Source: Selaginella tamariscina (taxonomy: Eukaryota > Streptophyta > Lycopodiopsida > Selaginellales > Selaginellaceae). From it: 64,000 nucleotides of DNA. The notes below the pieces were generated by a model. It had not been told where the DNA came from. It saw only the letters and a program-made list of their open reading frames with translations, and did not search any database. Location: positions 425,414-489,413 of the forward strand of contig PUQB01000030.1 of assembly GCA_003024785.1 (NCBI GenBank), given 5' to 3'. This document shows positions 16,693 to 50,789 of this stretch, one piece after another. The first letter of the stretch is position 1, and each line of letters begins with the position of its first letter. The position numbers and the translations under genes are program-made.

Positions 16693-16730
16693 AGACGGAA
16701 ATGAAGTCGAAGGTGTGACAACCATAGCTA

Positions 16731-17020: not shown

Positions 17021-17072
17021 GTATGTACAAGGTGCTCATTTATTAAAGTTAATCGGTGATTTGTAATAACAG

Positions 17073-17296: not shown

Positions 17297-17375
17297 TTTC
17301 ACTATGATAGCTGCTTGTAGGTACCATAGTTCGTAAATAATTTTAAGTATAAAGGAAGACATTCGAGATTAACAC

Positions 17376-18005: not shown

Positions 18006-18119
18006 GAAGAGACAACGAGCTGCACGTATACATACTAATAATCCTGCAATTTATATAGAACATATATTATTATTATTTTTACTATTATTATTATTAACTT
18101 ACTTTCTATTGAGAACATC

Positions 18120-19240: not shown

Positions 19241-19359
19241 AATATAATAAACCCTTTTCTCGAATTATCTTAAGGTTTTATATTTTATAGCATATATAGC
19301 TAGCTTCACTCAACAGTTACGATTTTGCATCATTTTCAGCTTCCAAAAACTCTGAGAAA

Positions 19360-20880
19360 GGCTATTCCTTATGTGCTCTACTGTCTCCTGATCCGTCGTC
19401 CCATCCAGTTTGTGCATTGTTGTCCCATCCAGTTTGTGCATTGTTATCCTCATCGTTGTTGAAGCGTGCTAGGAACTCCGCCTCTGTCCTAATGCAGTCT
19501 AGTTCATTTAACCCAGCAGTTGCAATGACTTGCTCTGAACTCTGGCAGTTCGAGCAGCTCTTTACTGCTAGCAAGGACAGTTCGTTGTTGCTCAATCCAG
19601 CACATGTCCACTGGCTCATTCCTATGGAGAAGCATGTTGTGCAAGGTACAACACACACCAACCATTTGCACAATAGTGTCCAAATCTGACTGCATCCTTG
19701 ATAATAGGATGCGCCACCTTCCCTTCAATTGTCCAAAAGTTCTCTCCACGATAATTGTGTTGCACTCAACACATAGTTAACGTGCCTTTGTTGTGGAGAA
19801 AGTTGTCCACGCTCCCTCTTGTACGAACTCATCTCCAGGACTTTGGAGGATGAAAGGCTGTATCACCAAGTAGCCAATATCCTTGTTGTTGGAGCTGTCC
19901 GCTTTCAATCATGCGGCCCAAGTTGGACATTTTCAAAACACGATTGTCATGAAATGAGCCACATACCCCGATGTCTAAAGAAAGAAAATGACCTGACAAG
20001 TCCACCGCAGCCAAGCAGTTGATTGAGTGGAACTGCTTATAGTTAAAGTACTCATGTCCCCTAAACTTGGCTTTTGGATGGGGATGTGCGTGCCATCAAT
20101 TGTAGCTATTACATTTGGGAAGCCACGATACTCTTCAAAAGCCTCACTGATTCTTCTGGCCTCCTCACCAACTAGCCATGCAAGAACAAGTCTGACCAAT
20201 GTTCTTTGATGATGCGCAACCCCTCGTGCACTATCACGTTGACAGTGCTTTGATCACAATGGAATTGCTGGCCAATGGTGGACTCAGAAGCACCAGATGC
20301 AAGTCAAGCAAAGAAGATGGCAACTCTCCTTTGAAGAGACATCACCCTCCAGTTCGGGCCCTTCTGGCCCTCAAAGCCAAATGACTTGAACACATCCATG
20401 CAAAACCATTCGAACGTGTCTTTGGTCATCCTGAAGATCATCCAAAACTCCTCTGCACTATAGAAAGGGTAGACATCTCTCTCCCATGAGCCCGTGTTTA
20501 GTAACAACCTGTCTCGAACCCACTGATTTCGCAAATGCCCTGAAGTGGCATCTGCTACGATAACAATTCGGAGTACGTTTTCCAAAGCCAACCCGCACAA
20601 CATACTAGCAGAGACTGCTGCAGCTCGCTGTCGGTTAGAGCTCAACATATGAAGTGTTTGATGCTGAGGTACATCATTCTCTTCCTCTTCAACATTGAAT
20701 GTAGCTTCAAATGGCCATGGGGTACCCATTGCATCTACTATTCTATCCCAGCAAATCTGAGTTGCATGTGCACACTACCACGGGTAAGCTCCTCAAGTGT
20801 CGCACTTGTTGCTAAGCTTTTTCCCTCAAGCTGTGAATTGTGGTCAGTTGTAGGTTGAGTCAATGCATTGATGAAGAGCG
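19360..20880 (-). pseudogene. PIF/Harbinger transposase (HARBI1-like DDE nuclease), broken
   Basis: Minus strand, N to C: WERDVYPFYSAEEFWMIFRM (20490-20431), FGFEGQKGPNWRVMSLQRRV, then FPNVIATIDGTHIPIQKPS (first catalytic Asp, 20125-20069), GVCGSFHDNRVL, YWLLGDTAFHPPKSW (second Asp, about 19875) and ERTFGQLKGRWRILLSRMQ (Glu motif, 19746-19690). All three DDE motifs are visible but in different frames. A 28-bp-spaced direct repeat (CCCATCCAGTTTGTGCATTG twice at 19399-19448) duplicates DNNAQTGWD near the C-terminus. The element sits exactly between head-to-head POLL copies C and A. Its terminal repeats were not identified. Confidence 0.8.
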
Positions 20881-21360
20881 GGTAGTAAATAATTAGGACT
20901 ACTAAAAAAACCGCATAAATCTGTTGGTGCTTATTATCGGTGAAAGAATCTTTTTTATGACGTGCACAATTTTTATAAACTTATGTCCACGTTGCTGATT
21001 TTTTGGAAGGTTTTTGATGAGAGATAAACCAGTGCAAATAATTCCATATAATAAGTCCTTTTAGTGTACTTAAGTTTTTTTAAAATGATTTAATTAAATA
21101 TTATTAGATAAAACTATGACAGACAATATAAATACTTCGTAAGTACATTACTATAGCTGGAAATAATGTGTAAATTATAATATATTATGCTAGCTATATA
21201 ATTTGCTATAAACATATAAAATGTGGGATAAATAATAATAACAATCAATTCACATTAAATGGCTTTAAAGTTATGATACATGATTGGACTAATAATATAT
21301 AAATATACAATAGTTGAGAAAAGGATTAAAGGAATGTTTATTAATAATAAAACAAAAATA
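20881..21360. other. AT-rich spacer
   Basis: No gene seen. It separates the PIF/Harbinger transposase from the start of inverted-repeat arm A. Confidence 0.5.
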
Positions 21361-22390
21361 AAATGCTCTGTTTTTAGGGCTAGAGTGCCCTAATTATGAA
21401 GCAGGGGATACACCGAGTGTGAAAAAGACGCCTTCTACGATGTGCAAGAAGAGGGAGAATTCAGAGCAAGGGAGCAAGAAGAGATGCAAGAAATCTTTCG
21501 ATTTCAAGGAATCTGGAAATAAGCGGCAAGGTATATTCTCGGGCATTTGTGCGCTCGGAGTAATCCAACTAGATTACAGGTAATTCTACACAATTCTTTG
21601 TAGATATGTATGTACATAAACAAATCACAGGTGGATTCTTAAGATTTCTAAGATGGACCAGCATCCATATTTCACACACACATATATACATACGCCCACA
21701 CACACACATGTGTGTGTGTTACGTGTTTGTGGAGTTCATAGTTGTACAAATAAGTCGTGCGTGTGTACATTCTGTGTGTGTTTAGAACATATATATGCGT
21801 GGATCTTAATATCTGGTATTGATATCTCGCACGCATGCCGTGTTTGTGTTTGTGCGTCCGTTTGTGTAGTTTACACACACTTATATGTAGTTTACGTATA
21901 TATGTACGTGCATGCGTTGTGCCTACACTATGTATGTATAAGCATATATATATTGTACACACACAACCACGATTTTCTACAGATTTGGAAACTTGGAGGT
22001 TGCATTTCAGATTCTAAGAATATCCCAGTATACTTGAATTATGTATTTGCTTGCAATGAGAAAGCTATTGAAGAAGTCGACCTTGAGCATCTCAAGACAT
22101 GTACTATGACGTATACACATTGTATACAAATGTATTAATGTATATGGTACTAACGCATTATATATGGTTTTTTCCAGTGTTTTCTGCTTTATGAATGGTT
22201 ACAGACATGCTTAACGGAAGGACATGTAGTCTCAACAGAGACTTACCAGCTGCAAAACCCGCTTAAACCTTCTCAAACTCTAGTTACTCAACATATTACC
22301 GTCCAAGAACATGCCAACGCCATGGAGACCTCCCAACGAGTATGAGTGTACAACACGGTGTTTTTTTTGTTGAGTTTTGTTTTCTTTCAG

Positions 22391-22734
22391 GTCACTAGAG
22401 AGCATTTCATACAACACACTAATACACAGTGTCCCCAATAAGTAAGTGCGCACACACACACACACAATGGAAATATTTGTGTTAACTTATGTTATGTATT
22501 TGCAGATCCCTACTGAGCATTCTCAGTATATGGCCATGGAGGTTTCCCAACAGGTAAGCGTGTGTGTGTGTGTGTGTGTTGTATCTTATGTTTTATATAT
22601 ATACATGCATATATATTATATATATATATATATATATATTGACGTGGGTTTCCTTTAAAGATCGCTACTGAGCATACAAATATCGGAAGCACTCAGACAG
22701 AGAGTGTTGACATCACAACCCAGGCCAGCTTGAG
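22391..22734 (+). repeat. Reiterated short exons in the POLL linker
   Basis: Three successive short exons with proper splice signals: VTREHFIQHTNTQCPQ (22391-22441), IPTEHSQYMAMEVSQQ (22506-22553) and IATEHTNIGSTQTE... (22661-22734). The preceding exon ends VQEHANAMETSQR, so the pattern (x)EH...(A)ME(T/V)SQ(Q/R) occurs repeatedly. The second and third short exons (51 and 48 bp) keep phase. Arm B has the same exons (38700-39000, minus strand). Confidence 0.6.
22558..22640. repeat. (GT)n and (TA)n microsatellites in POLL copy A intron
   Basis: A (GT)n tract starts a few bases after the 22553 donor and is followed by (TA)n at 22609-22640. The arm B counterpart (38719-38790) has a longer TA tract. 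Confidence 0.8.
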
Positions 22735-23436
22735 GTACATATGTATTTGGACACCACAGTGCGCACGCACACACACGTTTAAAATCTAATGTATATATGT
22801 AGGTAATAATGCGTATACAGGAATTAGAGTCTGTTTACGTCTGAGTTTATCTCTGAAGTTAAGATTATCATCTTCTTCAGAACTCTCATATTCTGAATGA
22901 GTGAATTTGTATGTCCACATAACTGTAAAGTTTATATAATATATATATATATATATATAACCTGAATCAAGACGTTTTATGGTAAACAGGAATCTGCGAA
23001 TCTTAATGAGCATCTTACACATATCTATGAGGACGTCCTCGGTGACCAATGAAGATCGGTCATGTACAGAAGGGTAAGCATGCACACACACGTGTGTGTG
23101 TGCATGTACATATCTGTAGAGTGTAAAATATGTTTTTACAGGCTGTGAATAAGTTACGAGGTTTACCGTACAAGGTCTGAACAAGTTAGAAACAGAAACA
23201 TGGATTTTCATTATTACAGAAAATTAAATAAATTCTTGGAACCGGTCGTCTTCAAAAGCTGACCACCTTAAAGCAGAGGTAATTTGTTTAACTAATTTAG
23301 TTTAATTTAAATGAACATGTATTAAATAGTTTAACTTAATTAATAGATAGCAGTTTAATTATAAAATTAACTAGAGTCTTAGTTGTTGAGTTGATGTCAA
23401 ACAGGTTGTTCAACGTCGTCCCTCCCCTCCGTGTAT

Positions 23437-23439
<3 letters not shown>

Positions 23440-23467
<28 letters not shown>
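23440..23467. repeat. (CA)n microsatellite in POLL copy A
   Basis: About 13 uninterrupted CA units just upstream of the finger-domain exon; mirrored in arm B at 37888-37911. Confidence 0.85.
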
Positions 23468-24395
23468 GTATCAACTTGAAAATACAAGCGTAGTAATCAG
23501 ATTAAGTAATAGTAAATTTTTATAGGTTGGGGGAATACAAGTACTGGGTTCTGTATGGGGAATAGGTGCAACACACGCTCGTGAGCTCTATAAAAGGGTT
23601 ACGGAGAGGTTAAGGACTTAATTAACGAGAGTCCACATGGCTCGCATGGGAGTTAAATACTATGATGATATTAATTTGAGAATGCCCCGCAAAGAAGTCT
23701 CGCAAGTTGAAACATTTGTGCGAAACGTGGTTGAATCACTTACACCCGGGGTACGTGGGGTGTGTGTGTGTGTGTTTGAGAGGGAGAGGGAGAGGGAAAG
23801 GGAGAGATCTTTAGCATTGATGTTTTAGGCTTCGGTGTGTGTGTGTGTTTCTAGGCTTGGGTGAATGCAGCAGGTTCATATCGAAGGGTAAAGAGACATG
23901 TGGAGACATTGACATTCTCATTACACATCCAGACGGTTCTAGGTGGATGTATATTCATATATCTACGTCTTCCTCTCCCTCTCCCTCTCCTGTATTGTTA
24001 TGAAGTATTGTATGTAATTTTGTTTATAGCTAACTTCTCTTTGGAAAAACAGAACACAATCAATTGTATCACACACAGTTACACTGTATGTGTGTGTGCG
24101 CGCGCACACACTAAGTTCTATTTCTGTTTTCATATATCCATCAGCATCTATTGGCTAGACTTGTACAAGAACTGCGCAGAATGGACTTCAGGTTGATGAA
24201 AACGCTAGAAAGGTATGTTAATTTAATCAATAATAATAAATAAAAGATAGTATGTTTAATAACATCAATGTTATATTTAAACAGACAACCGGACATGTTT
24301 ATGGGAATATGCCATCTTCAATACCGTAATTTAGTTATATCATGCTCAACATTCTTTATTTATTCTTTGGGCAAGCATGTGTGTGTGTGTATCGG

Positions 24396-24607
24396 TTAAA
24401 TGCTGTGCTAACCAATGCATAAAACTCGCTCAAGCCGGTGTTTCATACTGTTCATTTCGATGTTAGAAACCTTTAAAGAACAAGTACAGGTTATTTACCA
24501 GTAAAAAAATCTCGATTGCATTTCATATTGTTTGGTGTAAGAGAACTTGTTAGCGCAGACCGAAGTTTCATACATCTTACACGCACTGTGTATGTAATGT
24601 AGGAAGA

Positions 24608-24645
<38 letters not shown>

Positions 24646-24838
24646 GAAAAAAAGGAACTTTACCAGCTTTTGAGCCGGTGGGCTTCATCACATATGAGAA
24701 GCTCGGGCCTGGAAGAAGCAATAACATTCTGGTGCCTTCTCAGTGTCTGGTTAGGAGAGGATAAAAGTTGTCATTCTTGAATTCGAAGAGTCTTTGGTTT
24801 GCCTATTAAACAACAATATTTCCATATTTTGACCTGAC
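24396..24838 (-). pseudogene. SNF2/RAD54-like helicase fragment, arm A
   Basis: Minus strand: an exon-like block around 24838-24664 contains QTLRRHQNVIASS and RPELLICDEAHRLKSW. The DEAH box with LLICDEAHRLK matches plant RAD54/SNF2 motif II, and the YETFRxH-like stretch before it matches the preceding helix. Downstream, after an intron with a (CA)n tract, GLSEFYALVSTAFN (24450-24405) resembles the sequence after SNF2 motif III (GTPxQNxLEEFYAMVNF). It is convergent with POLL copy A. Only a small part of the ATPase domain is present, so it is not functional. RAD54 acts in homologous recombination repair. Confidence 0.55.
24613..24643. repeat. (CA)n microsatellite
   Basis: About 15 CA units in the presumed SNF2 intron; mirrored in arm B near 36769-36796. 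Confidence 0.85.
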
Positions 24839-24952
24839 AAAGAAGAGAGCAACCACTTGTAGCGTTTTGCCAATACCTAAGAACCGACGTGAACGCACAC
24901 ACACACACACACACACACACACGATACCTCAAGAGAGTTAGCTTGTCGGCAA

Positions 24953-25437
24953 TCCTCTTTTGATTTTCCGATTGTGAGACATAAAAACTTGGTTTTTATC
25001 AATTCTCTTCAATGTCTCTGTGAACCAAGGCAGGTACCGTGCGTAGAGATAAAAATCAAGTTTTTATCCCCGATTCTCTTCTGTGACACAATTCCGCTTC
25101 GGAATAGAGCTCGTCCTCTTTTGATTTTCCGATTGTGAGACATAAAAACTTGGTTTTTATCAAATTCTCTTCAATGTCTCTGTGAACCAAGGCAGGTACC
25201 GTGCGTAGAGATAAAAATCAAGTTTTTATCCCCGATTCTCTTCTGTGACACAATTCCGCTTCGGAATAGAGCTCGTCCTCTTTTGATTTTCCGATTGTGA
25301 GACATAAAAACTTGGTTTTTATCAAATTCTCTTCAATGTCTCTGTGAACCAAGGCAGGTACCGTGCGTAGAGATAAAAATCAAGTTTTTATCCCCGATTC
25401 TCTTCTGTGACACAATTCCGCTTCGGAATAGAGCTCG
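24953..25437. repeat. Three tandem ~162-bp units, arm A
   Basis: Units start at 24953, 25114 and 25276 (TCCTCTTTTGATTTTCCG) and end ...GGAATAGAGCTCG. Copies are near-identical apart from single-base differences. Each holds two A/T-rich palindromes (GATAAAAATCAAGTTTTTATC and ATAAAAACTTGGTTTTTAT). On the minus strand each encodes ELYSEAELCHRRESGIKT and HRDIEEN-like peptide, separated by a stop. Confidence 0.9.
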
Positions 25438-25916
25438 ATCTTTAAACGCGGGTACATTTTGTTGAATTCTTCCTCAAAATACCGCCCGGGGGTCTCGGAT
25501 GAACGCGCCGACACGGATTTTTGAGGTGCGCTACCATCGGCAACAAAGACAGTGTATAAAGAACAGAAAATGTATATATTATGCATATAAAAGAACTGGA
25601 CAAATCAATGCGTAGCATCTCCTTTCGGATCTCTTGCTCCGTTGCCTTCCGCTGCTTCCGGTTTGCCTTTCTTGCTTACCTTACCTGAATCCTTCTTCAT
25701 ATTCTTCTTCTCATTCTCGTTCCTCTTCTTCCTATGAGATTTTGGAGTACGGAACGACGTTCTAGCATAGTGTATCGGCATGTCACTCTCTCGCTCTTCA
25801 CTTGGATAGGGTACACCTTTAAAAGTATCTTTAAGCGAAGAGAGCCGTCCGATGTTACGATTCAGAGTAGCTACGGACGAATTTTAAGTATACTTGCGGT
25901 TTCTACCTTGCACTAA
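25438..25916 (-). pseudogene. Unrecognised coding remnant, arm A
   Basis: Minus strand gives KSVSARSSETPGRYFEEEFN followed by KMYPRLKIELYSEAELCHRR and, further upstream, KGVPYPSEERESDM and RTSFRTPKSHRKKRTRM. The same peptides are on the + strand in arm B (35650-36180). The composition looks like real protein and it precedes the SNF2 block on the same strand, so it may be the upstream part of that gene, but I do not recognise it. Confidence 0.35.
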
Positions 25917-26912
25917 TGAAGTTTTTTAAACGAAATGCATAATATCATAATTTCACAGCATTGTGTAATTTATTACTCTATATACCATATATAATACTAG
26001 TACAAGTTTTAAAAAGGCTTTATTCAACACAGAGCTGCTCAGTAGTCTTGTTAATGTATTCAATGTGATTAAAAAGAAGTATAGAATTTGAACTTAAATT
26101 CAAGAACACACACACACATCTGTGTATATACACCATCACAGGACTCCTTGAACTACATTTTATATTAGTTAACTCAAATAAAGTGACTGTGCTTAACAGC
26201 TTGAATCAATAACATTCTTTTATGTTTGTGTGAGGACTTTATATATTTATACTTTATAATGCATTTTAAAATATTTCATTATAGTAATAAAATTTAATGT
26301 AGTTTACTATTTATAATTTATTCAAGCACTTAAAATGATTAATAGATAAATTTAATAGCTAAATTGCTCGATTCTGAAGTCAGACTTTTGTAAGTTATAA
26401 TAATAAAAAGCTTTATGTAGATCTCTTATTAAAATTAAACTTTTGCAAAACCCTTGACATAAATTTAAGGGTCATTTTGATGGGTTTTTATTATGTTAAA
26501 ATTATATAGAAAACCATTACATTTAAATTTATGTATAACCTTATCTAATTTTTAAAAGAACTTTTTAAGGTCCCTTAACCATTTAATGTTAGGTCATCGT
26601 GCATGGAAACAATATAACTTTTAATAATAGTAATATTTATAATTATATTCTATAAAATTTAAACTATTAATATGAATTTATAATACAATACAAATTTATA
26701 TATTTAAAATAAACACATAATATAATATAAATTTAATAAATTAAATAAAAATTATTATTCTCAGTATGTTCTTTAAATATTCCATGTTGCATATATTTAT
26801 AAAGATAAAAATTAAATATACCATATAATTATTTGTTAACACAATTTTATTAATATAATATATATAATTATTTATTTGCAAGCACAGTTTATACTTCTGC
26901 TTATACATGCAT
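25917..26912. other. AT-rich inner part of arm A
   Basis: No gene. It is mirrored in 34661-35640 with nearly the same sequence. Confidence 0.7.
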
Positions 26913-27759
26913 GTGTCCTCTATTTTGTAACTAAAAGGGAGCATGTTTATAGTCCCATTTTTTAATAATTAATAATTTTAGTTATTTAATTAGTATTTTT
27001 TAATATTAAAAAGATTTTTAATAAATGTTTTAAAAAATATATATTTAAATGTATATTTAAAAATAGAATATTCTTTAAAACATCTTATTTTTGTAATTGA
27101 CCCTTTACTCTGTGTGTGTGAGAGAGAGACGCTAGCAGATAATTCCCAAACTAAAAACATTAAATAAGAACGTGAATTTAACACACACGTACACACTCTT
27201 GCCTACACCCAGAATACCATAATCACAACACCTTTGGCAAGCCGTACACGGACAAACACATGTTGACATGTATACCATTTTCGATGAACTCATGCGTATA
27301 TAATGCTCAATGTGACGTGAAAAAGGACTTGAATCTGTAATGAATTAATTATAATAGTTAAATAATTTAATTTACTAATTTAGAACTATGTGTTTTCAAG
27401 TCTTTAAATTTTGTTAAATAATATAAATAAATTTATAATCTGTAATTTTGACTCTTTGTGAATATATATATAAATAAATTATGGGGTCTATGTATACTAG
27501 ATAAACAATGGACCGTAAGCTATACGAGGGAGGTGTAGAACGAGGGTATACACATCGTAACATTACACGCACGCACGCACGCACGCACGCACACACACTT
27601 TATATCTCTTTTATGAAAATAAAATAAAACGTCATAGGCTATTAAATAATTTATAACGTGAAAACTACCAGAGCAAAGTATGAAGATAAAATACCATAAA
27701 ATACATGATATAAAAACTATATAGTAAAACACATATTATCTCTCTCACACACACACCTG
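26913..27759. other. AT-rich spacer start, with (GCAC)n/(CA)n
   Basis: No coding signal. A short tetranucleotide array (GCAC repeats) lies at 27566-27596. Confidence 0.5.
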
Positions 27760-28046
27760 TTTTGCTTGATGCTGTTCCATGCTACTGTATTTTGTGTACA
27801 TATCCAGCACAGTGTTTGTCACGAATGTGTTGGTTACACCCACTTCAGCGTGGATTCTTCTACCTGTATACAAACATGTGCACGTATATTTGTACCTGTG
27901 TTTCTTTGAAGGCGGCAATTGCTTGGCATGATGCCATTCTCTTTGCATTGGGTTGTACATATCGACTGGATCTGTCTGTATATATGTTATCTGGACTGCG
28001 ACCACATTGTGTAATATGTAGCGTCTCAAGTGGTTCAATCTCATGA
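27760..28046 (-). pseudogene. PPR gene fragment (minus copy)
   Basis: Minus strand shows RRIHAEVGVTNTFVTNTV and LDMYTKYSSMEQHQAKQ (27855-27760). This is the start of a plant PLS-type pentatricopeptide repeat (GRRIHA...VxNTVLDMYxKxSSME). Upstream sequence is in another frame. It is homologous to the fragments at 30624-31220 and 40087-40760. PPR proteins bind organellar RNA; this is only about one repeat long. Confidence 0.6.
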
Positions 28047-28079
28047 GAATGCATTACACAATCAATATTATGCAGAATT

Positions 28080-28112
28080 CAACGTGTTTGATCCACACTC
28101 AACCCATTTTCC
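28080..28112 (+). repeat. tRNA-Phe-like 3' fragment
   Basis: CGTGTTTGATCCACACTCAA resembles the T-arm and 3' acceptor of plant tRNA-Phe (CGTGTTCGATCCACGCTCAC). It lies 35 bp beyond the PPR fragment, divergent from it, as the 39899-39972 copy does with its PPR neighbour. Confidence 0.4.
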
Positions 28113-28511
28113 GCGAAAGTGAAGTTTAAAAATTTGAATACAAGATTCAAAATTCAAAACTTGATTGCGCCCTAATTCCTTAACACTCATGCTAACTTTG
28201 TTTTAAAGTTTGTAATAGTGCGAATCCAACAAGTTATATTCGGATCTCCAGTACAAGGCTCTCCCTCTCTTTAATAAAAGACAAATTAGAAAACTTAAAA
28301 ACTTTTGATTATTTAAAAAAAAAAAAAAAACCGTTGTTAATATACATAAAACAGATTTAGCTTATTGCCTTTTAAGAATCTTAACGGCATCCTAAGAGCT
28401 GTTTCCTCGTCGACATACAACGTATACGTATTGCTAGTAGACAGTAACTTCTCCACCTGGAAACATGACTCAGTATATTTAGTATATACTATATAGAATG
28501 TAAGATGTAAA

Positions 28512-28569
28512 GCGAGGATATAAAGCTTTAGATTGAAGATCTGCATGTGTTTGATCCACGCTCACCGGA
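28512..28569 (+). pseudogene. tRNA-Phe(GAA) pseudogene with deleted D arm
   Basis: Starts GCGAGGATA, has TTAGATTGAAGATCTG (anticodon arm with GAA) and ends GTGTTTGATCCACGCTCACC. The D arm and part of the variable region are missing. Confidence 0.5.
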
Positions 28570-29055
28570 TGGTTTATGTTAAAATTAATTATATAACATA
28601 TATACGTACAACATAATGTCACATTTTTTCGATTGTGTGGCTTGTTGTGAAATGACTCGCTTTATAACTATACAAAAGTAATATTGAATAATAATTAAAT
28701 TATGAATTCTTTGCGTATTAAAGCTTGATTGATCTATATATAGAATAGTATATTAAATAGAAATCCATATTAATATAGATTATAGGGTATAAAATATTAT
28801 ACATAATATAAATTTCAGACATTTATTTATTCATTATCTATGCATACATAAAATTATTAAGTTCAGTTTACTGACCCCATTTTAGAATGTTAAATACTTC
28901 AATGTTTGTATGTTTTTAATAACTATTAGCTATTCATTTTTTATTTTGAAAATAAAAATTAAATTATCTCCTAATTTATTATGAAGGATATAATAAAAAC
29001 ACAGAAGTTATTGTAAGTAGCAATTACAATGGAATTGTAAATGTAAACGATAAAA

Positions 29056-29335
29056 TATGTTATACTATACTTTTAAGTGACATTTAATTAACATTGTCAT
29101 GTCAAGTGGTTTAAGAAAATAAACAAATCGTATAAAAATGCCTAACACTACTTCAATATTAAATTCATATACTGCTCAGTGCTTATCATTACAATTACAA
29201 TTAATTGTAAACAATAAAATATTTTATACTTTAAATGACCATTAATTAACATTGCCAGGTCAAGTCATTTAACAAAATAAACAAAATCATATAAAAATGC
29301 TTAACAGTACATCAAAATTAAAATTCATATACTTA
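29056..29335. repeat. Two tandem ~120-bp AT-rich repeats
   Basis: Blocks at 29056-29170 and 29218-29335 share TTAATTAACATTG, AATAAACAAA and ATATAAAAATGC-type phrases in order. A related third copy lies near 34140-34250, and parts of the neighbouring sequence recur at 28661-28930, 33840-33910 and 34335-34570. Confidence 0.55.
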
Positions 29336-29529
29336 TCTTTCCGAAGTGTAACTGTAATACTTCATCAGCTATAAACACACCTAGCATTACTTTATAAAGC
29401 TTTTGATTTTCATATACAACACGTTTCTGTGTATATCCTTCCAATTGACTCTGTGCATGCGTGCGTGTGTGTGTGCGTGTGCGTGTGAGAGAGAGAGGAG
29501 TTACGTTTTGGAAGCTTGATACTCTAATG

Positions 29530-30620
29530 CTCGGTTTAATTCAAGTCGGAGTATCTGAGCAACCATTTCTTCTGATAGTTCAATCTTTGGAAGCCTAAAT
29601 AAATAAATACGTGAAATAAAACTAAACAATAATTAATATAATATATTGTTGCTAAGTTGGAATAATATAGTAACAAGGAGCATTTGAGAGAATGGAGAGT
29701 AGTGTATAGCCCACCAGTCAAATAAGAAATAGGCGACAGTTGCCCGCCTCCGGTTACATGTTTTGTTTTTCCACAAAAGCACGTGTATATCTAAATAAAT
29801 ATAAAAAATAATATTTTTAAAATTAAATTTGATTCTTAATAAATATATTTTAATTAATTTTATAAATCTTTTATTTATTTTAATCTTTTTTTTTAAACTG
29901 TCGTTATACTTATATTGGCCATCACCAAAAAATTGATAAACAGTACTTCTATGCTCGGATGCATTTTGATCAGCCACGATGAAACAGTCCTAAATTCTCG
30001 GATATTCTGAACTACCAAGTTTCATACTAATGAATGAAAAACAATTAACTATATTCATTATATATTTTTATCATTGTATACAACGTCTCTCTCATATATC
30101 GATATATTACATTATACGCATAAACATAACATTTTTTTTATTGTGCGTAAAATATAATTCTTAGGAATAGATTTATATGTCATAAAGATAAAAGTGGTAT
30201 GTACTTTTAAAAATATTATTATTACATAAAAGGTCAAAATATATACAGATTAAGTAAAATGAATTGATTAAATACAATATACTTTATTATATATATATAG
30301 AAGTACTGTTGATTTTATAAATTTTCATATTATAAAACAGATTGTTTAATAATAACATATCTATTATTTCTTTTGATTAGCCTGAAATAGTTACTAGACA
30401 TGATTTAATGCATTAATTATAAAGTTTATCGTTATATTCATTTATAACAATGATTATTAATGAATATCGATTTATCAGAGTTTTTAAATTGATAATATTA
30501 TTGGCATTAACAAGCCTGGAATTATTTCTTGAAAATATTGGTAATTACTCTTCAATATGTCAAAATTTAAATTAAATTTTTGTTAAATTCAATTATTTTT
30601 ACTAATAAATATTTCAAATC
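29530..30620 (-). pseudogene. Unrecognised duplicated module X, minus copy
   Basis: Minus strand: MADQNASEHRSTVYQFFGDG (29977-29918), a middle part around 29760-29700, and IELSEEMVAQILRLELNRAL with EYQASKT* (29590-29515). The AT-rich part to 30620 is also shared. The same exon-like pieces are on the + strand at 41020-42160, partly better preserved there and partly worse. The middle peptide is hydrophobic. Donor- and acceptor-like sites flank the pieces. Family unknown. Confidence 0.4.
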
Positions 30621-30623
30621 TCG

Positions 30624-31220
30624 AAGACGACTATAAGACGGTGTCACCCCAAGCAATGCAATACTGTGCAATCAAGGACAAGCAGGTACATATCTACATA
30701 CATATACAAGTGTCTGTCCTATAGGCGGGTGTGTGTATCTACACAGGTAGAAGAATCCACGCTCAAGTGGGCATACCAAACATATTTCGTGGCAAAACAC
30801 TGTGCGTACACCAATGTAGTAGCATGGAACTGGCCAAGAAACTGTTCGATGCTCGAACTATTGTCTCGTGGAACACTATGATCATGGGATACGCACAGAA
30901 TGGACTAGGAATATTTCACTTCAAATGTTTGATACAATGCAGGAACAAGGCTTTGTTCCCGATCCACGTACGTTCTCAAGGCGTGCACCAGCCCAGCTTC
31001 TCATCGAACAAGTCTCACCACCATTTCCCAAACAGGTGTGTGTGTGTGAGCTCGCACGTGTTATTTATTAGTCGTTTTATAAGATGCATATATACAAAAC
31101 AAACACACACACACACACGTGTTATTGTAGAATTATATTGTGAAACTTAAGTTGTTGCAGGAACAAAGTTTGAGCCCGACTCTAGAACGTTTGTGTTTGC
31201 ACTTTCTGCCTGTGCGTGGG
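30624..31220 (+). pseudogene. PPR gene fragment (plus copy 1)
   Basis: Exon 1 ends AIKDKQ/GT at 30685. Exon 2 (30747-31035) encodes GRRIHAQVGIPNIF, SSMELAKKLFDA and RTIVSWNTMIMGYAQNGLG and ends exactly at a (GT)n tract. Exon 3 from 31161 encodes TKFEPDSRTFVFALSACA. These are consecutive PLS-type PPR motifs broken by frameshifts. It corresponds piece by piece to 40087-40760. Confidence 0.7.
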
Positions 31221-31359
31221 TGCGTGCGTGTGTCTGAGTTTGTACTGATATACAAACAAGAAGATCGAGGAAATAATAAATCGACATATTGAAATATATA
31301 TATGTCTATACACACACCCACACACATTTTATGTTTCAGTAGTGAATCAAATATGTAAA

Positions 31360-31424
31360 GCGGCGACAGGAGACCCGTTAGACTGAAATATATAAAGTTG
31401 AGTGTTCGATTCACGCTAACTGCA
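31360..31424 (+). pseudogene. Degenerate tRNA-Phe-like sequence
   Basis: GCGGCGACAGG..GTTAGACTGAA and AGTGTTCGATTCACGCTAACTGCA keep the outline of tRNA-Phe (anticodon GAA, T-arm) with many changes. Confidence 0.4.
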
Positions 31425-31448
31425 TTTTATTTATTATATTAAACAACA

Positions 31449-31774
31449 AGTGTTAGACATTTTATTTTCAACCCTAAACACGTCACGTTTAATATTTTAA
31501 TATTTCTAAACGCTTTAATGACTAAAATTGAATAAGTGTTACAGTGACAGTTACTTAGAAAAATAAAAAAAATTTAAAACATTATGTAATGCTTATTCAT
31601 TTTAGCGTTTAGAAAATAAAATAAATATTAAAATATTAAACGTGACGTGTTTAGGGTTGAAAATAAAATGTTAAACACTCTAGCACTTATTCATTTAGTC
31701 ATTAAAGCGTTTAGAAATATTAAAATATTAAATATAAACGTGACGTGTTTAGGTCGAAAATAAAATGTTAAAAC
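31449..31774. repeat. Foldback repeat plus a third unit
   Basis: The unit at 31449-31540 (AGTGTTAGACATTTTATTTT ... GAATAAGTG) is inverted at 31591-31679 and again, same orientation as the second, at 31684-31774. All share the CTAAACACGTCACGTTTAAT core. A likely MITE-type or foldback sequence. Confidence 0.7.
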
Positions 31775-33341
31775 AATTAATGTTTTGAATTTGTACTTAC
31801 AACGAGTTAGCAGCAGCAACGTTCTAGATTGACATTGAATGCAAAATTTAGTAACTACAGAATAAACAAATTATATAAGAATGTTAAGAATATCTGTGGG
31901 GTAACTGTATTATGGTGCATTTTAATTACTCATATATTATATGGAACTTAATTATTAATTATTTAAATTTTACTTAATTATATTCTTTATTACGTGTAAA
32001 ATTATTTCAAAAATAATGAATTAGTTTACACATCGTCAGTGTTATTAAGAATCATCTAATTAAATTTGATTTTTTACAATTGAAATAAACATTGAACAAT
32101 ATATTTTAGTTCATTATTTTGAATGTGCATGAAAAAAGTATATTTTACATGTGCTATACTGCAAATTTTTACTTAAAATGAATAAAGATAGTTTAATTAA
32201 ATTTATAAATCTTCTTTATTTTTTAATCAAAATTTAACAGTAAATACATTGGCATGCATTTTTATCAGCCCAGGGATCATCCATGGTGGAAAGATCGTAA
32301 ACAATAGTAATAATTTATACTTATACGTATTAATTTAAGAGAGCGAGAGAGGATTTTTCTATATGCAGGAACAAGACTTTTGTATAAACGAGAACAAGGC
32401 TTTTTTTTCTATCGCGTGTTTGATTGATACTATTAAAAACCTTTAATAAAACTAAACTTGACTGGTAATGTGGTATTTTGAAGAGTATATGTAGCTGATT
32501 ATCATATCACATAATGTCACATGTTTTTATATTTATTACCAAAATAATATTGAGTAATTAAATTATGATTTTTTTGTTCTGACATTGTCTGTGTGTATGT
32601 GTTATAGATTAATTGAGCTATGAATGCTCGATATAAATAGTACATAAAATAGAAATCAATATTCATATAGAGATTGTAAAAAATTTATAATTATATTGGA
32701 CCCATAGGTTAAATAAAAAGTATTTATTTATTTAGTATCGCACCACAATTTTCTTATTAAAATCGTTATAACAACCCCAGTATAGTATCAGTTTTTCAAA
32801 AATATCAAATGTAAATTCTTTAAAATTTGAACTGTTCATTCCTTATTTGAAAATATAAAACAAAAATAAAAAATAAAAAGAATGCACAGTGCGTTGGAGT
32901 GGCACGAGTTGCTGTAAACGGCAATAATTTTACTTATATTTTAATAAGAATAAACGAATTATATAAAAAATTCAAAAATATATACTGCTGAAAATATGAT
33001 GTTTACCTTACTTAAGTTTAAGTTGCAGTGTAAACTTCATCAGCTACTCACATACCACACACACAACAAATACGTAATTTTATACGGAGATTCTTAAAAT
33101 ATACCTTAGAGTTTTCTGATGTGTACATGAATGAAAGCAAAAAGCTGTTCCATTTAAATATTAAACAATAAAATTTATTAACTTAAATAAATTAGCAGGA
33201 CTTTCTTTTGATCCATTTTATATTAAGTGATAAACTGTAACTCACACATGACTTCTAGCTAAGCCATAATGTTAAAAGTAATAATAAATATAATGAAGTA
33301 AATTATAATTTGATATTAATTGCAAACAACTGTCAATCACA

Positions 33342-33386
<45 letters not shown>

Positions 33387-34660
33387 ACTGACTTGCTTAG
33401 AGTTTGATTGGTTGACTTAACAAGTTGTGTGTGTGTGTGGTTTAATTCTTACATGATGTGTTTACTCTATAGCTAGACCGACACAAAAGCCTTAAGTAAT
33501 CACTTAATGCTAATAACCGAGTCATCAATGTATGCTTATCATGGTATCTGAATATCTTACTGCTAGATCGTATACACTTGCAAACACCCATACGTAGATG
33601 CATACTGTATATACAACAAACACACACACGCACACACAATTAACAATTTATTAAAATCTTTTAAAATAAAATTCATATGGTTTAAGTTAAAAGTATTGAT
33701 TCTATGGTAATTTAAAACTGATTATCTTGTACACATAATGTTTTTCAATTGTGTGGTTTTCTACTTATACTTCTATAAAAAGTTGCTAAATTGTTGTATT
33801 TATAGTGAATATCTGAGTGTGCGTGCGTGTGTTATAATTTGGAATGCTTGATATAAAATAGTATAGAAATCCATATTAATATAGATTATAGAAGTGTAAA
33901 ATATTATACATTGTTCGTGGTTCCACACGTTAGATATATTATCTGTATAGACAAAAACCATTTTAAGCATATTGCAATTTGATTAAGTTCAAAACCACAA
34001 ATTTTGAAATTAATGTTAATTCTTTTAAAATGTCAACTGTTAAATACTTTCCTGTTCAGTCTTTAAGAAAAGAAAACGTCTGCTGGCAGGATACAGTAAA
34101 ATATGAAATAACATAATTTGACTTTATTATTATTCGGATAAATAATGTGAAAGGTACTGTAAGAAGTCAAGTTGTTTAGAAAATAAAGATATTATATAAA
34201 ATGCTTAACAGTGTACTCTAATTAAAGTTCATATATTGCTTACTTGTGTGTCTGCGCGCGTATATGGATGTCCATCTATATTTATATATATGAAATTAAC
34301 TATTCATAAGTTTACCTTAGGGTCTTCTTTTGTTATATTATAACTATACAAAAGTAATATTGAATAATAATTAAATTATGAATTCTTTATTTCTGATATC
34401 CTGTGTATTAAAGTTTAATTGATTTATATATAGACTAATATATTAACATCAAATATAATTTCATTATTTAATATCTATGTATATTTTATGGTAAAAACCT
34501 AACATAAAATTTCAATTTCATTAGGTTCAGTTTAGTAAAATGTTAACTACTTTTAAAGTTTGTATGTTTTAAGGACTTTTTCAAATATGAAGGATATAAT
34601 AAAAATATAAAAATATTGTAAGTATATATGTGTATAAACATATCCATATATCAACAGAAG
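31775..34660. other. AT-rich spacer between the inverted-repeat arms
   Basis: No supported gene. It contains (CT)n(CA)n at 33343-33388 and imperfect repeats related to 28661-28930 (for example ATCCATATTAATATAGATTA at 33868). Confidence 0.5.
33343..33388. repeat. Compound (CT)n(CA)n microsatellite
   Basis: A CT tract directly followed by a CA tract. The same compound type occurs at 63751-63797. Confidence 0.85.
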
Positions 34661-35649
34661 ACGCATGTATAAGCAGAAGTATAAACTGTGCTTGCAAATA
34701 AATAATATATATATATATTATATTAATAAATTGTGTTAACAATAATATATATGGTATATTTAATTTTTATCTTTATAAAATATATGCAACATGGAATATT
34801 TAAAGAACATACTGAGAATATAATTTTTATTTAATTTATTAAATTTATATATATGTGTTTATTTTAAATATATAAATTTGTATTGTATTATAAATTCATA
34901 TTAATAGTTTAAATTTTATAGAATATAATTATAAATATTACTATTATTAAAAGTTATATTGTTTCATGCACGATGACCTAGACATTAAATGGTTAAGGGA
35001 CCTTAAAAAGTTCTTTTAAAAATTAGATAAGGTTATACATAAATTTAAATGTAAGTTTTCTATATAATTTTAACATAATAAAAACCCATCAAAATGACCC
35101 TTAAATTTATGTCAAGGGTTTTGCAAAAGTTTAATTTTAATAAGAGATCTACATAAAGCTTTTTATTATTATAACTTACAAAAGTCTGACTTCAGAATCG
35201 AGCAATTTAGCTATTAAATTTATCTATTAATCATTTTAAGTGCTTGAATAAATTATAAATAGTAAACTACATTAAATTTATTACTATAATGAAATAATTT
35301 TAAAATGCATTATAAAGTATAAATATATAAAGTCCTCACACAAACATAAAAGAATGTTATTGATTCAAGCTGTTAAGCACAGTCACTTTATTTGAGTTAA
35401 CTAATATAAAATGTAGTTCAAGGAGTCCTGTGATGGTGTATATACACAGATGTGTGTGTGTGTTCTTGAATTTAAGTTCAAATTCTATACTTCTTTTTAA
35501 TCACATTGAATACATTAACAAGACTACTGAGCAGCTCTGTGTTGAATAAAGCCTTTTTAAAACTTGTACTAGTATTTATATATGGTATATAGAGTAATAA
35601 ATTACACAATGCTGTGAAATTATGATATTATGCATTTCGTTTAAAAAAC

Positions 35650-36135
35650 TTCATTAGTGCAAGGTAGAAACCGCAAGTATACTTAAAATTCGTCCGTAGC
35701 TACTCTGAATCGTAACATCGGACGGCTCTCTTCGCTTAAAGATACTTTTTAAAGGTGTACCCTATCCAAGTGAAGAGCGAGAGAGTGACATGCCGATACA
35801 CTATGCTAGAACGTCGTTCCGTACTCCAAAATCTCATAGGAAGAAGAGAACGAGAATGAGAAGAAGAATATGAAGAAGGATTCAGGTAAGGTAAGCAAGA
35901 AAGGCAAACCGGAAGCAGCGGAAGGCAACGGAGCAAGAGATCCGAAAGGAGATGCTACGCATTGATTGTTGTCCAGTTCTTTTATATGCATAATATATAC
36001 ATTTTCTGTTCTTTATACACTGTCTTTGTTGCCGATGGTAGCGCACCTCAAAAATCCGTGTCGGCGCGTTCATCCGAGACCCCGGGCGGTATTTTGAGGA
36101 AGAATTCAACAAAATGTACCCGCGTTTAAAGATCG
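35650..36135 (+). pseudogene. Unrecognised coding remnant, arm B
   Basis: Plus strand carries the same peptides as 25438-25916: KGVPYPSEERESDM, RTSFRTPKSHRKKRTRM and SARSSETPGRYFEEEFNKMY. It is followed by the tandem units and the SNF2 block in the same direction. Confidence 0.35.
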
Positions 36136-36456
36136 AGCTCTATTCCGAAGCGGAATTGTGTCACAGAAGAGAATCGGGGATAAAAACTTGATTTTTATCT
36201 CTACGCACGGTACCTGCCTTGGTTCACAGAGACATTGAAGAGAATTTGATAAAAACCAAGTTTTTATGTCTCACAATCGGAAAATCAAAAGAGGACGAGC
36301 TCTATTCCGAAGCGGAATTGTGTCACAGAAGAGAATCGGGGATAAAAACTTGATTTTTATCTCTACGCACGGTACCTGCCTTGGTTCACAGAGACATTGA
36401 AGAGAATTTGATAAAAACCAAGTTTTTATGTCTCACAATCGGAAAATCAAAAGAGG
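36136..36456. repeat. Two tandem ~162-bp units, arm B
   Basis: Units begin at 36136 and 36298 (GAGCTCTATTCCGAAGCGGA) and match the three units of arm A in reverse complement. The copy-number difference (2 versus 3) arose after the arms formed. Confidence 0.9.
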
Positions 36457-36575
36457 ATTGCCGACAAGCTAACTCTCTTGAGGTATCGTGTGTGTGTGTG
36501 TTGTGTGTGTGTGCGTTCACGTCGGTTCTTAGGTATTGGCAAAACGCTACAAGTGGTTGCTCTCTTCTTTGTCAG

Positions 36576-36768
36576 GTCAAAATATGGAAATATTGTTGTT
36601 TAATAGGCAAACCAAAGACTCTTCGAATTCAAGAATGACAACTTTTATCCTCTCCTAACCAGACACTGAGAAGGCACCAGAATGTTATTGCTTCTTCCAG
36701 GCCCGAGCTTCTCATATGTGATGAAGCCCACCGGCTCAAAAGCTGGTAAAGTTCCTTTTTTTCTTTGT

Positions 36769-36802
<34 letters not shown>

Positions 36803-37015
36803 TTCCTACATTACATACACAGTGCGTGTAAGATGTATGAAACTTCGGTCTGCGCTACAAGTTCTCTTACACCAAACAATATGAAATGCAATCGAGATTT
36901 TTTTACTGGTAAATAACCTGTACTTGTTCTTTAAAGGTTTCTAACATCGAAATGAACAGTATGAAACACCGGCTTGAGCGAGTTTTATGCATTGGTTAGC
37001 ACAGCATTTAACCGA
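36576..37015 (+). pseudogene. SNF2/RAD54-like helicase fragment, arm B
   Basis: Plus strand: QTLRRHQNVIASS and RPELLICDEAHRLKSW end at a donor (AAAGCTG/GTAAAG, 36745). A TG-rich intron follows, then GLSEFYALVSTAFNR at 36975-37015. The motif II DEAH box is intact. It is convergent with POLL copy B, the same arrangement as in arm A. Assignment to the RAD54 branch rests on the LLICDEAHRLK match and is moderate. Confidence 0.55.
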
Positions 37016-37536
37016 TACACACACACACATGCTTGCCCAAAGAATATAATAAAGAATGTTGAGCATGATATAACTAAATTACGGTATTGAAGATGGCATA
37101 TTCCCATAAACATGTCCGGTTGTCTGTTTAAATATAACATTGATGTTATTAAACATACTATCTTTATTTATTATTATTGATTAAATTAACATACCTTTCT
37201 AGCGTTTTCATCAACCTGAAGTCCATTCTGCGCAGTTCTTGTACAAGCGCGACACACACATACAGTGTAACTGTGTGTGATACAATTGATTGTGTTCTGT
37301 TTTTCCAAAGAGAAGTTAGCTATAAACAAAAACATACAATACTTCATAACAATACAGGAGAGGGAGAGGGAGAGGAAGACGTAGATATATGAATATACAT
37401 CCACCTAGAACCGTCTGGATGTGTAATGAGAATGTCAATGTCTCCACATGTCTCTTTACCCCTTCGATATGAACCTGCTGCATTCACCCAAGCCTAGAAC
37501 ACACACACACACCGAAGCCTAAAACATCAATGCTAA

Positions 37537-37591
37537 AGATCTCTCCCTTTCCCTCTCCCTCTCCCTCTCAAACACACACACACACACCCCA
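37537..37591. repeat. (CT-rich)/(CA)n compound microsatellite in POLL copy B
   Basis: CCCTCT repeats followed by (CA)n, immediately 3' (minus sense) of the TPG/GTACGTGGGG donor; copy A has the mirror at 23760-23805. Confidence 0.7.
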
Positions 37592-38389
37592 CGTACCCCG
37601 GGTGTAAGTGATTCAACCACGTTTCGCACAAATGTTTCAACTTGCGAGACTTCTTTGCGGGGCATTCTCAAATTAATATCATCATAGTATTTAACTCCCA
37701 TGCGAGCCATAACAGACGGTGACTCTCGTTAATTAAGTCCTTAACCTCTCCGTAACCCTTTTATAGAGCTCACGAGCGTGTGTTGCACCTATTCCCCATA
37801 CAGAACCCAGTACTTGTATTCCCCCAACCTATAAAAATTTACTATTACTTAATCTGATTACTACGCTTGTATTTTCAAGTTGATACGTGTGTGTGTGTGT
37901 GTGTGTGTGTTATATACACGGAGGGGGAGGGACGACGTTGAACAACCTGTTTGACATCAACTCAACAACTAAGACTCTAGTTAATTTTATAATTAAACTG
38001 CTATCTATTAATTAAGTTAAACTATTTAATACATGTTCATTTAAATTAAACTAAATTAGTTAAACAAATTACCTCTGCTTTAAGGTGGTCAGCTTTTGAA
38101 GACGACCGGTTCCAAGAATTTATTTAATTTTCTGTAATAATGAAAATCCATGTTTCTGTTTCTAACTTGTTCAGACCTTGTACGGTAAACCTCGTAACTT
38201 ATTCACAGCCTGTAAAAACATATTTTACACTCTACAGATATGTACATGCACACACACACGTGTGTGTGCATGCTTACCCTTCTGTACATGACCGATCTTC
38301 ATTGGTCACCGAGGACGTCCTCATAGATATGTGTAAGATGCTCATTAAGATTCGCAGATTCCTGTTTACCATAAAACGTCTTGATTCAG

Positions 38390-38390
38390 G

Positions 38391-38425
<35 letters not shown>
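38390..38425. repeat. (TA)n microsatellite
   Basis: About 17 TA units; the arm A counterpart (22937-22960) is shorter. Confidence 0.8.
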
Positions 38426-38426
<1 letters not shown>

Positions 38427-38714
38427 CTTTACAGTTATGTGGACATACAAATTCACTCATTCAGAATATGAGAGTTCTGAAGAAGATGATAATCTTAACT
38501 TCAGAGATAAACTCAGACGTAAACAACTCTAATTCCTGTATACGCATTATTACCTACATATATACATTAGATTTTAAACGTGTGTGTGCGTGCGCACTGT
38601 GGTGTCCAAATACATATGTACCTCAAGCTGGCCTGGGTTGTGATGTCAACACTCTCTGTCTGAGTGCTTCCGATATTTGTATGCTCAGTAGCGATCTTTA
38701 AAGGAAACCCACGT

Positions 38715-38717
<3 letters not shown>

Positions 38718-38761
<44 letters not shown>
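38718..38761. repeat. (AT)n microsatellite
   Basis: About 21 AT units next to a POLL linker exon; longer than its arm A partner at 22609-22640. Confidence 0.8.
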
Positions 38762-38765
<4 letters not shown>

Positions 38766-39898
38766 ACATAAGATACAACACACACACACACACATGCTTA
38801 CTGTTGGGAAACCTCCATGGCCATATACTGAGAATGCTCAGTAGGGATCTGCAAATACATACCATAAGTTAACACAAATATTTCCATTGTGTGTGTGTGT
38901 GTGTGCGCACTTACTTGTTGGGGACACTGTGTATTAGTGTGTTGTATGAAATGCTCTCTAGTGACCTGAAAGAAAACAAAACTCAACAAAAAAAAACACA
39001 CCGTGTTGTACACTCATACTCGTTGGGAGGTCTCCATGTGTTCTTGGACGGTAATATGTTGAGTGACTAGAGTTTGAGAAGGTTTAAGCGGGTTTTGCAG
39101 CTGGTAAGTCTCTGTTGAGACTACATGTCCTTCCGTTAAGCATGTCTGTAACCATTCATAGAGCAGAAAACACTGGAAAAAACCATATATAATGCGTTAG
39201 TACTATACATTAATACATTTGTATACAATGTGTATACGTCATAGTACATGCTTGAGATGCTCAAGGTCGACTTCTTCATAGCTTTCTCATTGCAAGCAAA
39301 TACAAGTATAATGGGATATTCTTAGAATCTGAAATGCAACCTCCAAGTTTCCAAATCTGTAGAAAATCGTGGTTGTGTGTGTACAATATATATGCTTATG
39401 TAACTTTAAGATGCCATATACATACATAGTGTAGGCACAACGCACACGTACATATATACGTAAGCTACATATAAGTGTGTGTAACTATACAAACGCACGC
39501 ACAACACAAACACGGCGTGCGTGATATCAATACCAGATATTAAGATCCACGCATATATATGTTCTAAACACACAGAATGTACACACGCACGACTTATTTG
39601 TACAACTATGAACTCCACAAACACGTAACACACACACACATGTATGTGTGTGGCCGTGCATGTATATGTGTGTGTGTGTTGTGTGAAATATACACACAGA
39701 TGCTGGTCCATCTTAGAAATCTTAAGAATGCACCTGTCAAAGAATTGCTCTGAATTTTCTTGCACATCGTGTTCTTCAGACTCGGTGTATCCCCTGCTTC
39801 TTACTGTAGCCCTAAAACAGGGCATTTTACAAATATTATACTTCTATCAAACTTCAATTAATTAATTATATATTTTATTAGTGAACGTGGAAGAAAGG

Positions 39899-39972
39899 TG
39901 CGGCGAGCGTGGATCGAACACGCGACCTTTAGATCTTCAGTATAAACGCTCTCCCATCTGAGCTATCCCCGC
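39899..39972 (-). tRNA. tRNA-Phe(GAA)-like gene, possibly a pseudogene
   Basis: Minus strand begins GCGGGGATAGCTCAGATGGG, has CTGAAGATCT with anticodon GAA, and ends GTGTTCGATCCACGCTCGCC then GCA. D and T arms are intact and boxes A and B are present. There is one extra nucleotide between the D stem and the anticodon stem and one mismatch in the anticodon stem (74 nt instead of 73). It is very close to plant cytosolic tRNA-Phe, so it is either a recent pseudogene or a functional variant. It lies just outside arm B and divergent from a PPR fragment. Confidence 0.65.
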
Positions 39973-40086
39973 TTTATATTTTAAATCTCGCAACTGATTA
40001 CTTAATTCAAAATTTTGAAACTGTTCCGTAATAAATCGTAAGGAACAACAAACACCGGAAATCGCCTCGCAACAATGCCAACACCG

Positions 40087-40760
40087 ACCCAGTTACTGCT
40101 GACGAAGACGGTATCACTCCAAGCAATGCACTACATATTTCAGCATTCAAATAGTGTGCAATCAATAGGGACCTCCAAACAGGTACATATCCATATACAT
40201 TTACAAGTACGTGGGTGTGTATCTACACACAGGTAGAAGAATCCACGCTCTAGTGGGCATCAAACATATTCGTGGCAAACACCGTGCTGGATATGTACAC
40301 AAGATGTAGTAGCATGGAACTGGTCAAGAAACTCTTTGATGAGATGCCAAATCGAGCGATTATCTCATGGAACACTATGATCATGGGATACGCACAGAAT
40401 GGACTAGGACATGCCTCACTTCAAATGTTTGATACAATGCAGGAACAAGGCTTTGTTCCATATCACGTGCGTTTGTTGCTGTTCTCAAGGCGTGCACCAG
40501 CCGCTATAGCTTCTGAAGAACAATGGCACCACATCGAACAAGTATCACCACCATCTAACAAACAGGTGTGTGTGTGTGCGCGCGTGTTATTATAGTCGTT
40601 TTATAAGATGCATATACAACACACACACATGTTACTGTAGACTTATTCCCATGAACCGGAAGAAGCCCTCAAGTTGTTCAATGACACGCAGGAAGAAGGA
40701 TTTGAGCCCGTTTGTGTCTGCACTTTCTGCGTGCGCATGTGTGTCTGAGTTTGTACTGGA
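40087..40760 (+). pseudogene. PPR gene fragment (plus copy 2, best preserved)
   Basis: Exon 2 (40233-40565) reads RRIHALVGI..., FVANTVLDMYTRCSSMELVK, KLFDEMPNRAIISWNTMIMG and YAQNGLGHASLQMFDTMQEQ, typical PLS-class PPR motifs. It ends in AACAG/GTGTGTGTGTG, so the donor is inside a GT microsatellite. Exon 3 (from 40641) has EPEEALKLFNDTQEEGFEP. About two to three repeats are present, far short of a real PPR protein. The family functions in organellar RNA editing and processing. Confidence 0.7.
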
Positions 40761-40837
40761 TGTTAGGAAGAGTCTTCAGATATACAATCTGTTCTACACA
40801 AAGGAAATATAAATAATTAATTCAATATACATATTGA

Positions 40838-40858
40838 ATACACACACACACACACACA

Positions 40859-40889
<31 letters not shown>

Positions 40890-40898
40890 GATAGAGAG

Positions 40899-40938
<40 letters not shown>
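40838..40938. repeat. Compound (CA)n(TA)n(GA)n microsatellite
   Basis: Three different dinucleotide tracts in direct succession, ~100 bp in total. Confidence 0.9.
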
Positions 40939-41019
40939 TGAAATATTTAATAAAAATATTTATATTTAACAAAAATTAAGTTTAAGTTTGAAATACTGAA
41001 ATATTTTTAATAATAATTT

Positions 41020-44314: not shown

Positions 44315-44356
<42 letters not shown>

Positions 44357-45343: not shown

Positions 45344-45375
<32 letters not shown>

Positions 45376-50656: not shown

Positions 50657-50789
50657 CCAGTATTTAAATTCCACTTAACACCTATTAACAACGAAAAGAT
50701 GTTTATTAACAAGTGTTCAAACCCTTTGAGCAGTTTAAATTATAATATATATCTACACAAAATTGCCTGGCATATAAGCATTTGCCACT

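Follow-up and report, generated by a model that had tools for sequence, protein, structure and literature searches.

The palindromes of Y chromosomes are large inverted repeats whose arms stay alike through gene conversion between them, and at the Arabidopsis PAI locus an inverted gene repeat silences homologous genes in trans. Here we describe a large inverted repeat that carries fragments of two DNA-repair genes, DNA polymerase lambda (pol lambda) and a RAD54-like SNF2 gene, in the lycophyte Selaginella tamariscina. The window, which is the whole stretch of DNA that was analysed, comprises 64,000 bp and corresponds to positions 425414-489413 of contig C616 (PUQB01000030.1) in an assembly of 300,702,823 bp and 1391 contigs (GCA_003024785.1). 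Like the Y-chromosome palindromes, the locus has opposite arms around a spacer, a tract free of substitutions and an abrupt shift to diverged sequence; unlike them, it consists of one modest pair of 5-kb pseudogene cassettes, and conversion is deduced from a single assembly. It resembles the PAI locus in its inverted duplicated gene sequence and in the 21-mers that one arm shares with a full-length pol lambda relative (L015), and differs from it in having a spacer of 7.75 kb and in being known from sequence alone. With slightly better than even confidence, we consider that two existing inverted paralogues were homogenised by non-allelic gene conversion within a cluster of pol lambda and PPR blocks. 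High-identity opposite arms and a tract boundary, the latter with a possible cause in the assembly, are both found at this locus. The phenomenon is of a known kind, of which this instance is a further example; a literature search for inverted-repeat conversion in plants showed nothing specific among the 10 of 23 papers that were listed.

Geometry of the inverted repeat and the step in divergence

Arm A (21627-26910, forward strand, 5284 bp) and arm B (39737-34663, reverse strand, 5075 bp) were delimited by self-BLAST and global alignment, and enclose a spacer of 7752 bp (26911-34662). An earlier note on this DNA had described two opposite arms around a spacer of about 7.7 kb, and this geometry is confirmed; its outer limits lay wider (21361-39835) because a weak match of 68% (21325-21469 against 39862-39745) extends past the high-identity edge. 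Self-BLAST returned three opposite-strand segments: 21627-24103 with 39737-37247 at 95.3%, 24160-25275 with 37247-36134 at 99.3%, and 25114-26910 with 36457-34663 at 98.7%. The arm-to-arm global alignment contains 16 substitutions in 5003 gap-free columns (99.7% ungapped identity) and 61 insertion or deletion (indel) events. A block of 55-58 bp at about 24098 is present in arm A only, and a 162-bp tandem repeat has three units in arm A (24953-25437) and two in arm B (36134-36457). Arm length and identity exclude a chance match, and the assembled sequence does contain the inverted repeat.

Divergence was measured in clean substitutions, for which microsatellites and sites at most 5 bp from gaps were excluded. 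Clean substitutions number 9 in the 662 sites of the outer part of the arms (21627-22610 in arm A) and 0 in the 3457 sites of the inner tract (22611-26910 in arm A, with its counterpart at 34663-38740 in arm B), a step with a Fisher P of 7e-8. When the nine outer sites were polarised with three other pol lambda copies as outgroups (L013, L015 and L016), four were derived in A, three in B and two could be assigned to neither, so that the outer part carries real, two-sided divergence. For scale, C616 and contig C1270, which are allelic to the right of 42.1 kb, differ by 25 clean substitutions in 10182 sites, and L013 and L015 by 24 in 4614. The inner tract is more alike than alleles (P = 9e-4 against the allelic pair). 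The earlier note had called the arms nearly identical outside microsatellites, which is true of the inner 4.3 kb and less so of the outer 1 kb, and its proposal of a recent origin or ongoing conversion gains support from the step.

Arm A, its copy in contig C937 and arm B were also compared three ways over 22610-26910. Among the 50 private indels, 39 were of 1-2 bp and 35 were losses; this predominance of short losses is the pattern expected of consensus noise. Besides substitutions, the arms differ mostly by 1-2-bp indels, largely noise of this type. The idea that indels mark the arms alone as unpolished was dropped, since the allelic pair C616/C1270 is similarly indel-rich (in 11.5 kb, 62 indels of one base and 29 longer ones). 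When a long-read assembly includes both haplotypes, its copies can differ by far more small indels than substitutions, and both gene decay and arm identity should be judged by substitutions.

DNA-repair gene fragments in the arms

The pol lambda copy of arm A, together with its outer flank, occupies 21396-24350 on the forward strand and is truncated at its 3' end, with the thumb part absent. Read by eye, its exon edges place exon 1 at about 21430-21577, two exons that we take by their motifs, likewise by eye, to be BRCT-like at about 22002-22100 and 22180-22343, and finger/palm exons at about 23622-23752 and 23855-23907, followed by degraded remnants to about 24350. The copy in arm B (37040-39360, reverse strand) is without most of exon 1. 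Two palm pieces of arm A matched Pfam at E-values of 3.2e-4 and 4.8e-5, both short of the cut-off. The identity given in the earlier note is borne out through L015 (C713:41.6-45.4 kb), which is a full-length pol lambda relative: in Pfam it matched the fingers of pol lambda at 1.7e-15, the palm at 6.1e-12 and the thumb at 4e-8, and among PDB chains its finger exon matched pol lambda best (2.6e-12), with pol beta next (9e-11). When the genome was searched for the thumb domain, four places came up, namely C937:149.6 kb (with two internal stops), C713:41.6 kb, C617 and C582, none of which lies in the arms. The arms are fragments of the family X DNA polymerase lambda and hold an incomplete finger-palm-thumb set. 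Small indels are common as noise here, so an individual frameshift proves little about decay; the label of pseudogene is right for the missing 3' end, which is real in both arms as assembled. The arms probably encode no working protein.

The RAD54-like SNF2 fragment lies convergent with the pol lambda copy, as had been proposed, at 24453-24930 on the reverse strand in arm A and at 36480-36955 on the forward strand in arm B, where a DEAH-like motif is found at 36639-36746. The match of the arm's own piece to the SNF2 profile is weak (E = 0.014, short of the cut-off), and a PDB search with two SNF2-strand pieces of the arm gave zero matches. The identity is supported through a relative on the same contig (L046, C616:806.6 kb), which the arm fragment matches in three pieces at 84-96% identity, including 24453-24819 of arm A; one exon of this relative passes the SNF2 cut-off (1.3e-6) and another gave PDB matches to a RAD54-like chain (8.7e-9) and to ATRX (0.0076). 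A further locus, C904:601 kb, matches 24536-24812. Fuller relatives of both genes are present elsewhere in the same genome, and the combination of the two was located only as arm A (in C616 and C937) and arm B.

Origin of the arms

Blocks of pol lambda, PPR and AT-rich sequence form a shuffled cluster in this region, and both arms look like old members of it. They adjoin sequences that also neighbour related copies elsewhere, and for this reason look like pre-existing paralogues. The inner edge of arm A into the left part of the spacer is also found in C713 (26612-27901 at 87.6%), and that of arm B recurs at C937:197 kb (85 bp at 92%). The outer side of arm A leads into pol lambda exon 1 and is matched in L013, L015 and L016 as far as 21061, the point at which a transposon begins. 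The right flank of arm B, with a PPR exon (39795-41285, forward strand), has a counterpart next to a pol lambda copy in C713, where 40194-41285 matches 29.6-30.7 kb at 98.2%; the adjoining arm pieces match C713 at 81-90%, which makes a second mosaic step beside this flank. C713 has an arm-less version, in which the right part of the spacer is followed by 108 bp and then by the PPR block, and C937 has a similar one.

Several further repeats were observed around the arms. The inner end of arm A (26449-26875) is a dispersed repeat, to which other contigs show more than 30 partial matches (71-88%). Within the spacer, blocks of about 50 bp from 31400-34600 recur often, mainly in C937, C713, C887, C1270 and C616, which suggests a region-specific repeat cluster, and local imperfect inverted and direct repeats lie at 31449-31774, just past the end of C937 at 31344. 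Beside arm B, ARAGORN predicted a tRNA-Phe (39897-39972); short pieces like it occur on many contigs at about 85-94%, so that it could belong to a gene family or represent a repeat derived from a tRNA.

Gene conversion between the arms would have started from two pre-existing inverted pseudogene cassettes in a duplicated, shuffled cluster. The inner 4.3 kb, which spans the 162-bp repeat as well as the combined pol lambda and RAD54 fragments, would recently have been copied from one arm onto the other, and the outer 1 kb, left unconverted, would retain the older divergence. The sequence itself shows the repeat, the step, the gene identities and the partial counterparts of the arm edges; that conversion caused the step, and that the contig is joined correctly, is inferred.

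A number of observations weigh against it. A third, unconverted pol lambda-RAD54 copy was not found in the genome search, and the support from the inner edge of arm B amounts to its 85-bp match. Arm B has an excess of private indels (26, against 12 in arm A and 12 in the C937 copy), and at the frame breaks in the pol lambda exons (23636 and 23885), which may be real, arm A agrees with the C937 copy and arm B differs. Real indel differences probably exist inside the inner tract, alongside the 55-58-bp block and the one 162-bp unit. Before filtering, the alignment of A, C937 and B held 13 inner-tract substitutions, all of which adjoin gaps or microsatellites and were removed by the clean-site filter. 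As for the contigs, C937 leaves C616 at 15567, the edge of a transposon copy, and left of 42115 C616 disagrees with C1270, its right-hand allele. The right part of the spacer (31400-34600) was found at full length in C616 alone, no second contig that joins it to arm B was seen in the contig searches, and C616 could itself be chimeric near 15567 or 42115.

The contig relations bear most directly on an assembly artefact, in which homologous loci or haplotypes were fused into C616, and no single chromosome carries the inner part of arm B or, more broadly, the head-to-head layout as a whole. We regard this as the leading rival, distinctly less probable than conversion and yet a possibility of some weight. 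The assembly was built from PacBio reads with Falcon and is listed in Table 1 of PMC8558194 with 300.73 Mb against a stated genome size of 150 Mb; being twice the stated size, it probably holds both haplotypes. Positions 31344-15567 of the window correspond to C937:1-15695 in reverse, and the arm A locus is also present in C937, at about 4.4-9.7 kb. Over 21071-31344 the two contigs differ by 0 clean substitutions in 9191 sites and by 31 indel events outside microsatellites, with zero differences from 28000 on, yet they conflict leftward inside the repeated transposon: divergence jumps to about 3.5% substitutions over 15567-17000, and homology then ends. Past the transposon, C937 consists of a high-copy repeat (40 of 5629 first-look candidates were scored), and the left flank of C616 is matched only partly, by C612 (96%) and C1034 (87%). 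One of the two contigs may have been joined wrongly through the transposon at 15567-17000, or the haplotypes may differ. To the right, collinearity with C1270 covers 42115-56319 (95-98%), and C616 departs from that contig at 42115. Among C616, C937 and C1270 there may be one or more chimeras, or the haplotypes may differ in structure. The interval 41285-42115 marks the left limit of the C616/C1270 allelic collinearity, with rearranged haplotypes or paralogues further left.

Other features sit poorly with an artefact. A head-to-head join of haplotypes predicts homology outward of the arms and is unlikely, as no such match is among the 60 longest self-matches listed. A switch to the reads of A within B should have led into the left part of the spacer and not the right, and mixing in the consensus would be expected to homogenise the outer 1 kb as well. 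All four arm edges have partial counterparts elsewhere, some of them on C937 and C713, which are possibly misjoined themselves. A simple fold-back read artefact is rejected, since a near-zero spacer would be expected and 7.75 kb is present. The arms are not taken for mobile elements either: inspection of their ends by eye recognised neither terminal repeats nor a target duplication.

A recent inverted duplication of the whole cassette, with the outer 1 kb of B later replaced from a copy about 1% diverged, would need no conversion of the inner tract. It would account for the zero clean substitutions there and for the genome search having located the RAD54-bearing cassette in no place other than A (C616 and C937) and B, but a closer outer donor was not seen when the outer part of A served as query, the next long copies being at 71-73%, and the flank that the inner edge of B shares with C937:197 kb is unexpected for a new insertion. 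We hold it to be unlikely. Still more improbable is that the arms were once direct repeats and that arm B took its present orientation in a local inversion of about 31-41 kb: C1270 does carry relatives of the right part of the spacer (34446-31937) inverted, shortly before relatives of 41231-44500, but C713, and similarly C937, keeps the window order of right spacer and then PPR block without the arm, and with orientation differing among copies a single inversion cannot explain them all.

The neighbouring transposon and possible consequences

A copy of a PIF/Harbinger-like DNA transposon (15567-21062) abuts the outer flank of arm A. The element was found in seven further fetched loci (L018-L024), at about 94-98% in the main blocks, and also in C937. 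TWA target duplications mark the PIF/Harbinger superfamily, and terminal inverted repeats (TIRs) with TAA or TTA at both ends were seen by eye in all three copies, of the seven fetched, for which both ends could be read (L020, L021 and L022). Copy L022 matched DDE_Tnp_4 (1.3e-18) and Myb_DNA-bind_4 (2.7e-8); the piece at 20304-20771 of the window's own copy gave no DDE_Tnp_4 or Myb match, and the right end of that copy is degraded. With the family's transposase and Myb matches, its TIRs and its 3-bp duplications, 15567-21062 is assigned to PIF/Harbinger. The copy contains rearranged pol lambda pieces at 17341-19228, closest to L013 and L015, including a palm-exon piece (18477-18549) and an exon-1 piece (18982-19228) at 91%. 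It is like Pack-TYPE elements in being a TIR element with captured host exons; copies on other contigs carry pol lambda pieces as well. Pack-TYPE elements, including those of Harbinger-PIF, are defined in PMC8903248 as non-autonomous; the copies here differ in retaining transposase and Myb-like reading frames in pieces (L022). This PIF/Harbinger family has spread pol lambda exons to several contigs.

Elsewhere in the window, plant-type genes (NPH3, AUX/IAA and PPR) were observed, as was a self-complementary palindrome of 700 bp at 79% (55900-56598) within a stretch of about 19% GC. An Rfam scan of the window returned zero families reaching the gathering score.

The two arms have 3775 21-mers in common, and 402 complex 21-mers of arm A are also present in the pol lambda gene L015, so that a hairpin from the arms could in principle act in trans. 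We give only a very slim chance to the proposal that transcription through the arms would yield a long hairpin RNA, with 21-nt products directed at full-length pol lambda and the RAD54-like gene. In PMC5569507 four lycophytes were sequenced, and the two Selaginella species among them, both other than S. tamariscina, were without an obvious 24-nt small-RNA peak. If the proposal were true, a pair of converted pseudogenes would serve a desiccation-tolerant plant in the control of its DNA-repair genes, and arm-to-arm conversion would keep the hairpin nearly perfect. If the inverted repeat and its step are real, the locus would be a clear natural lycophyte example of a conversion-tract boundary between inverted DNA-repair pseudogene arms.

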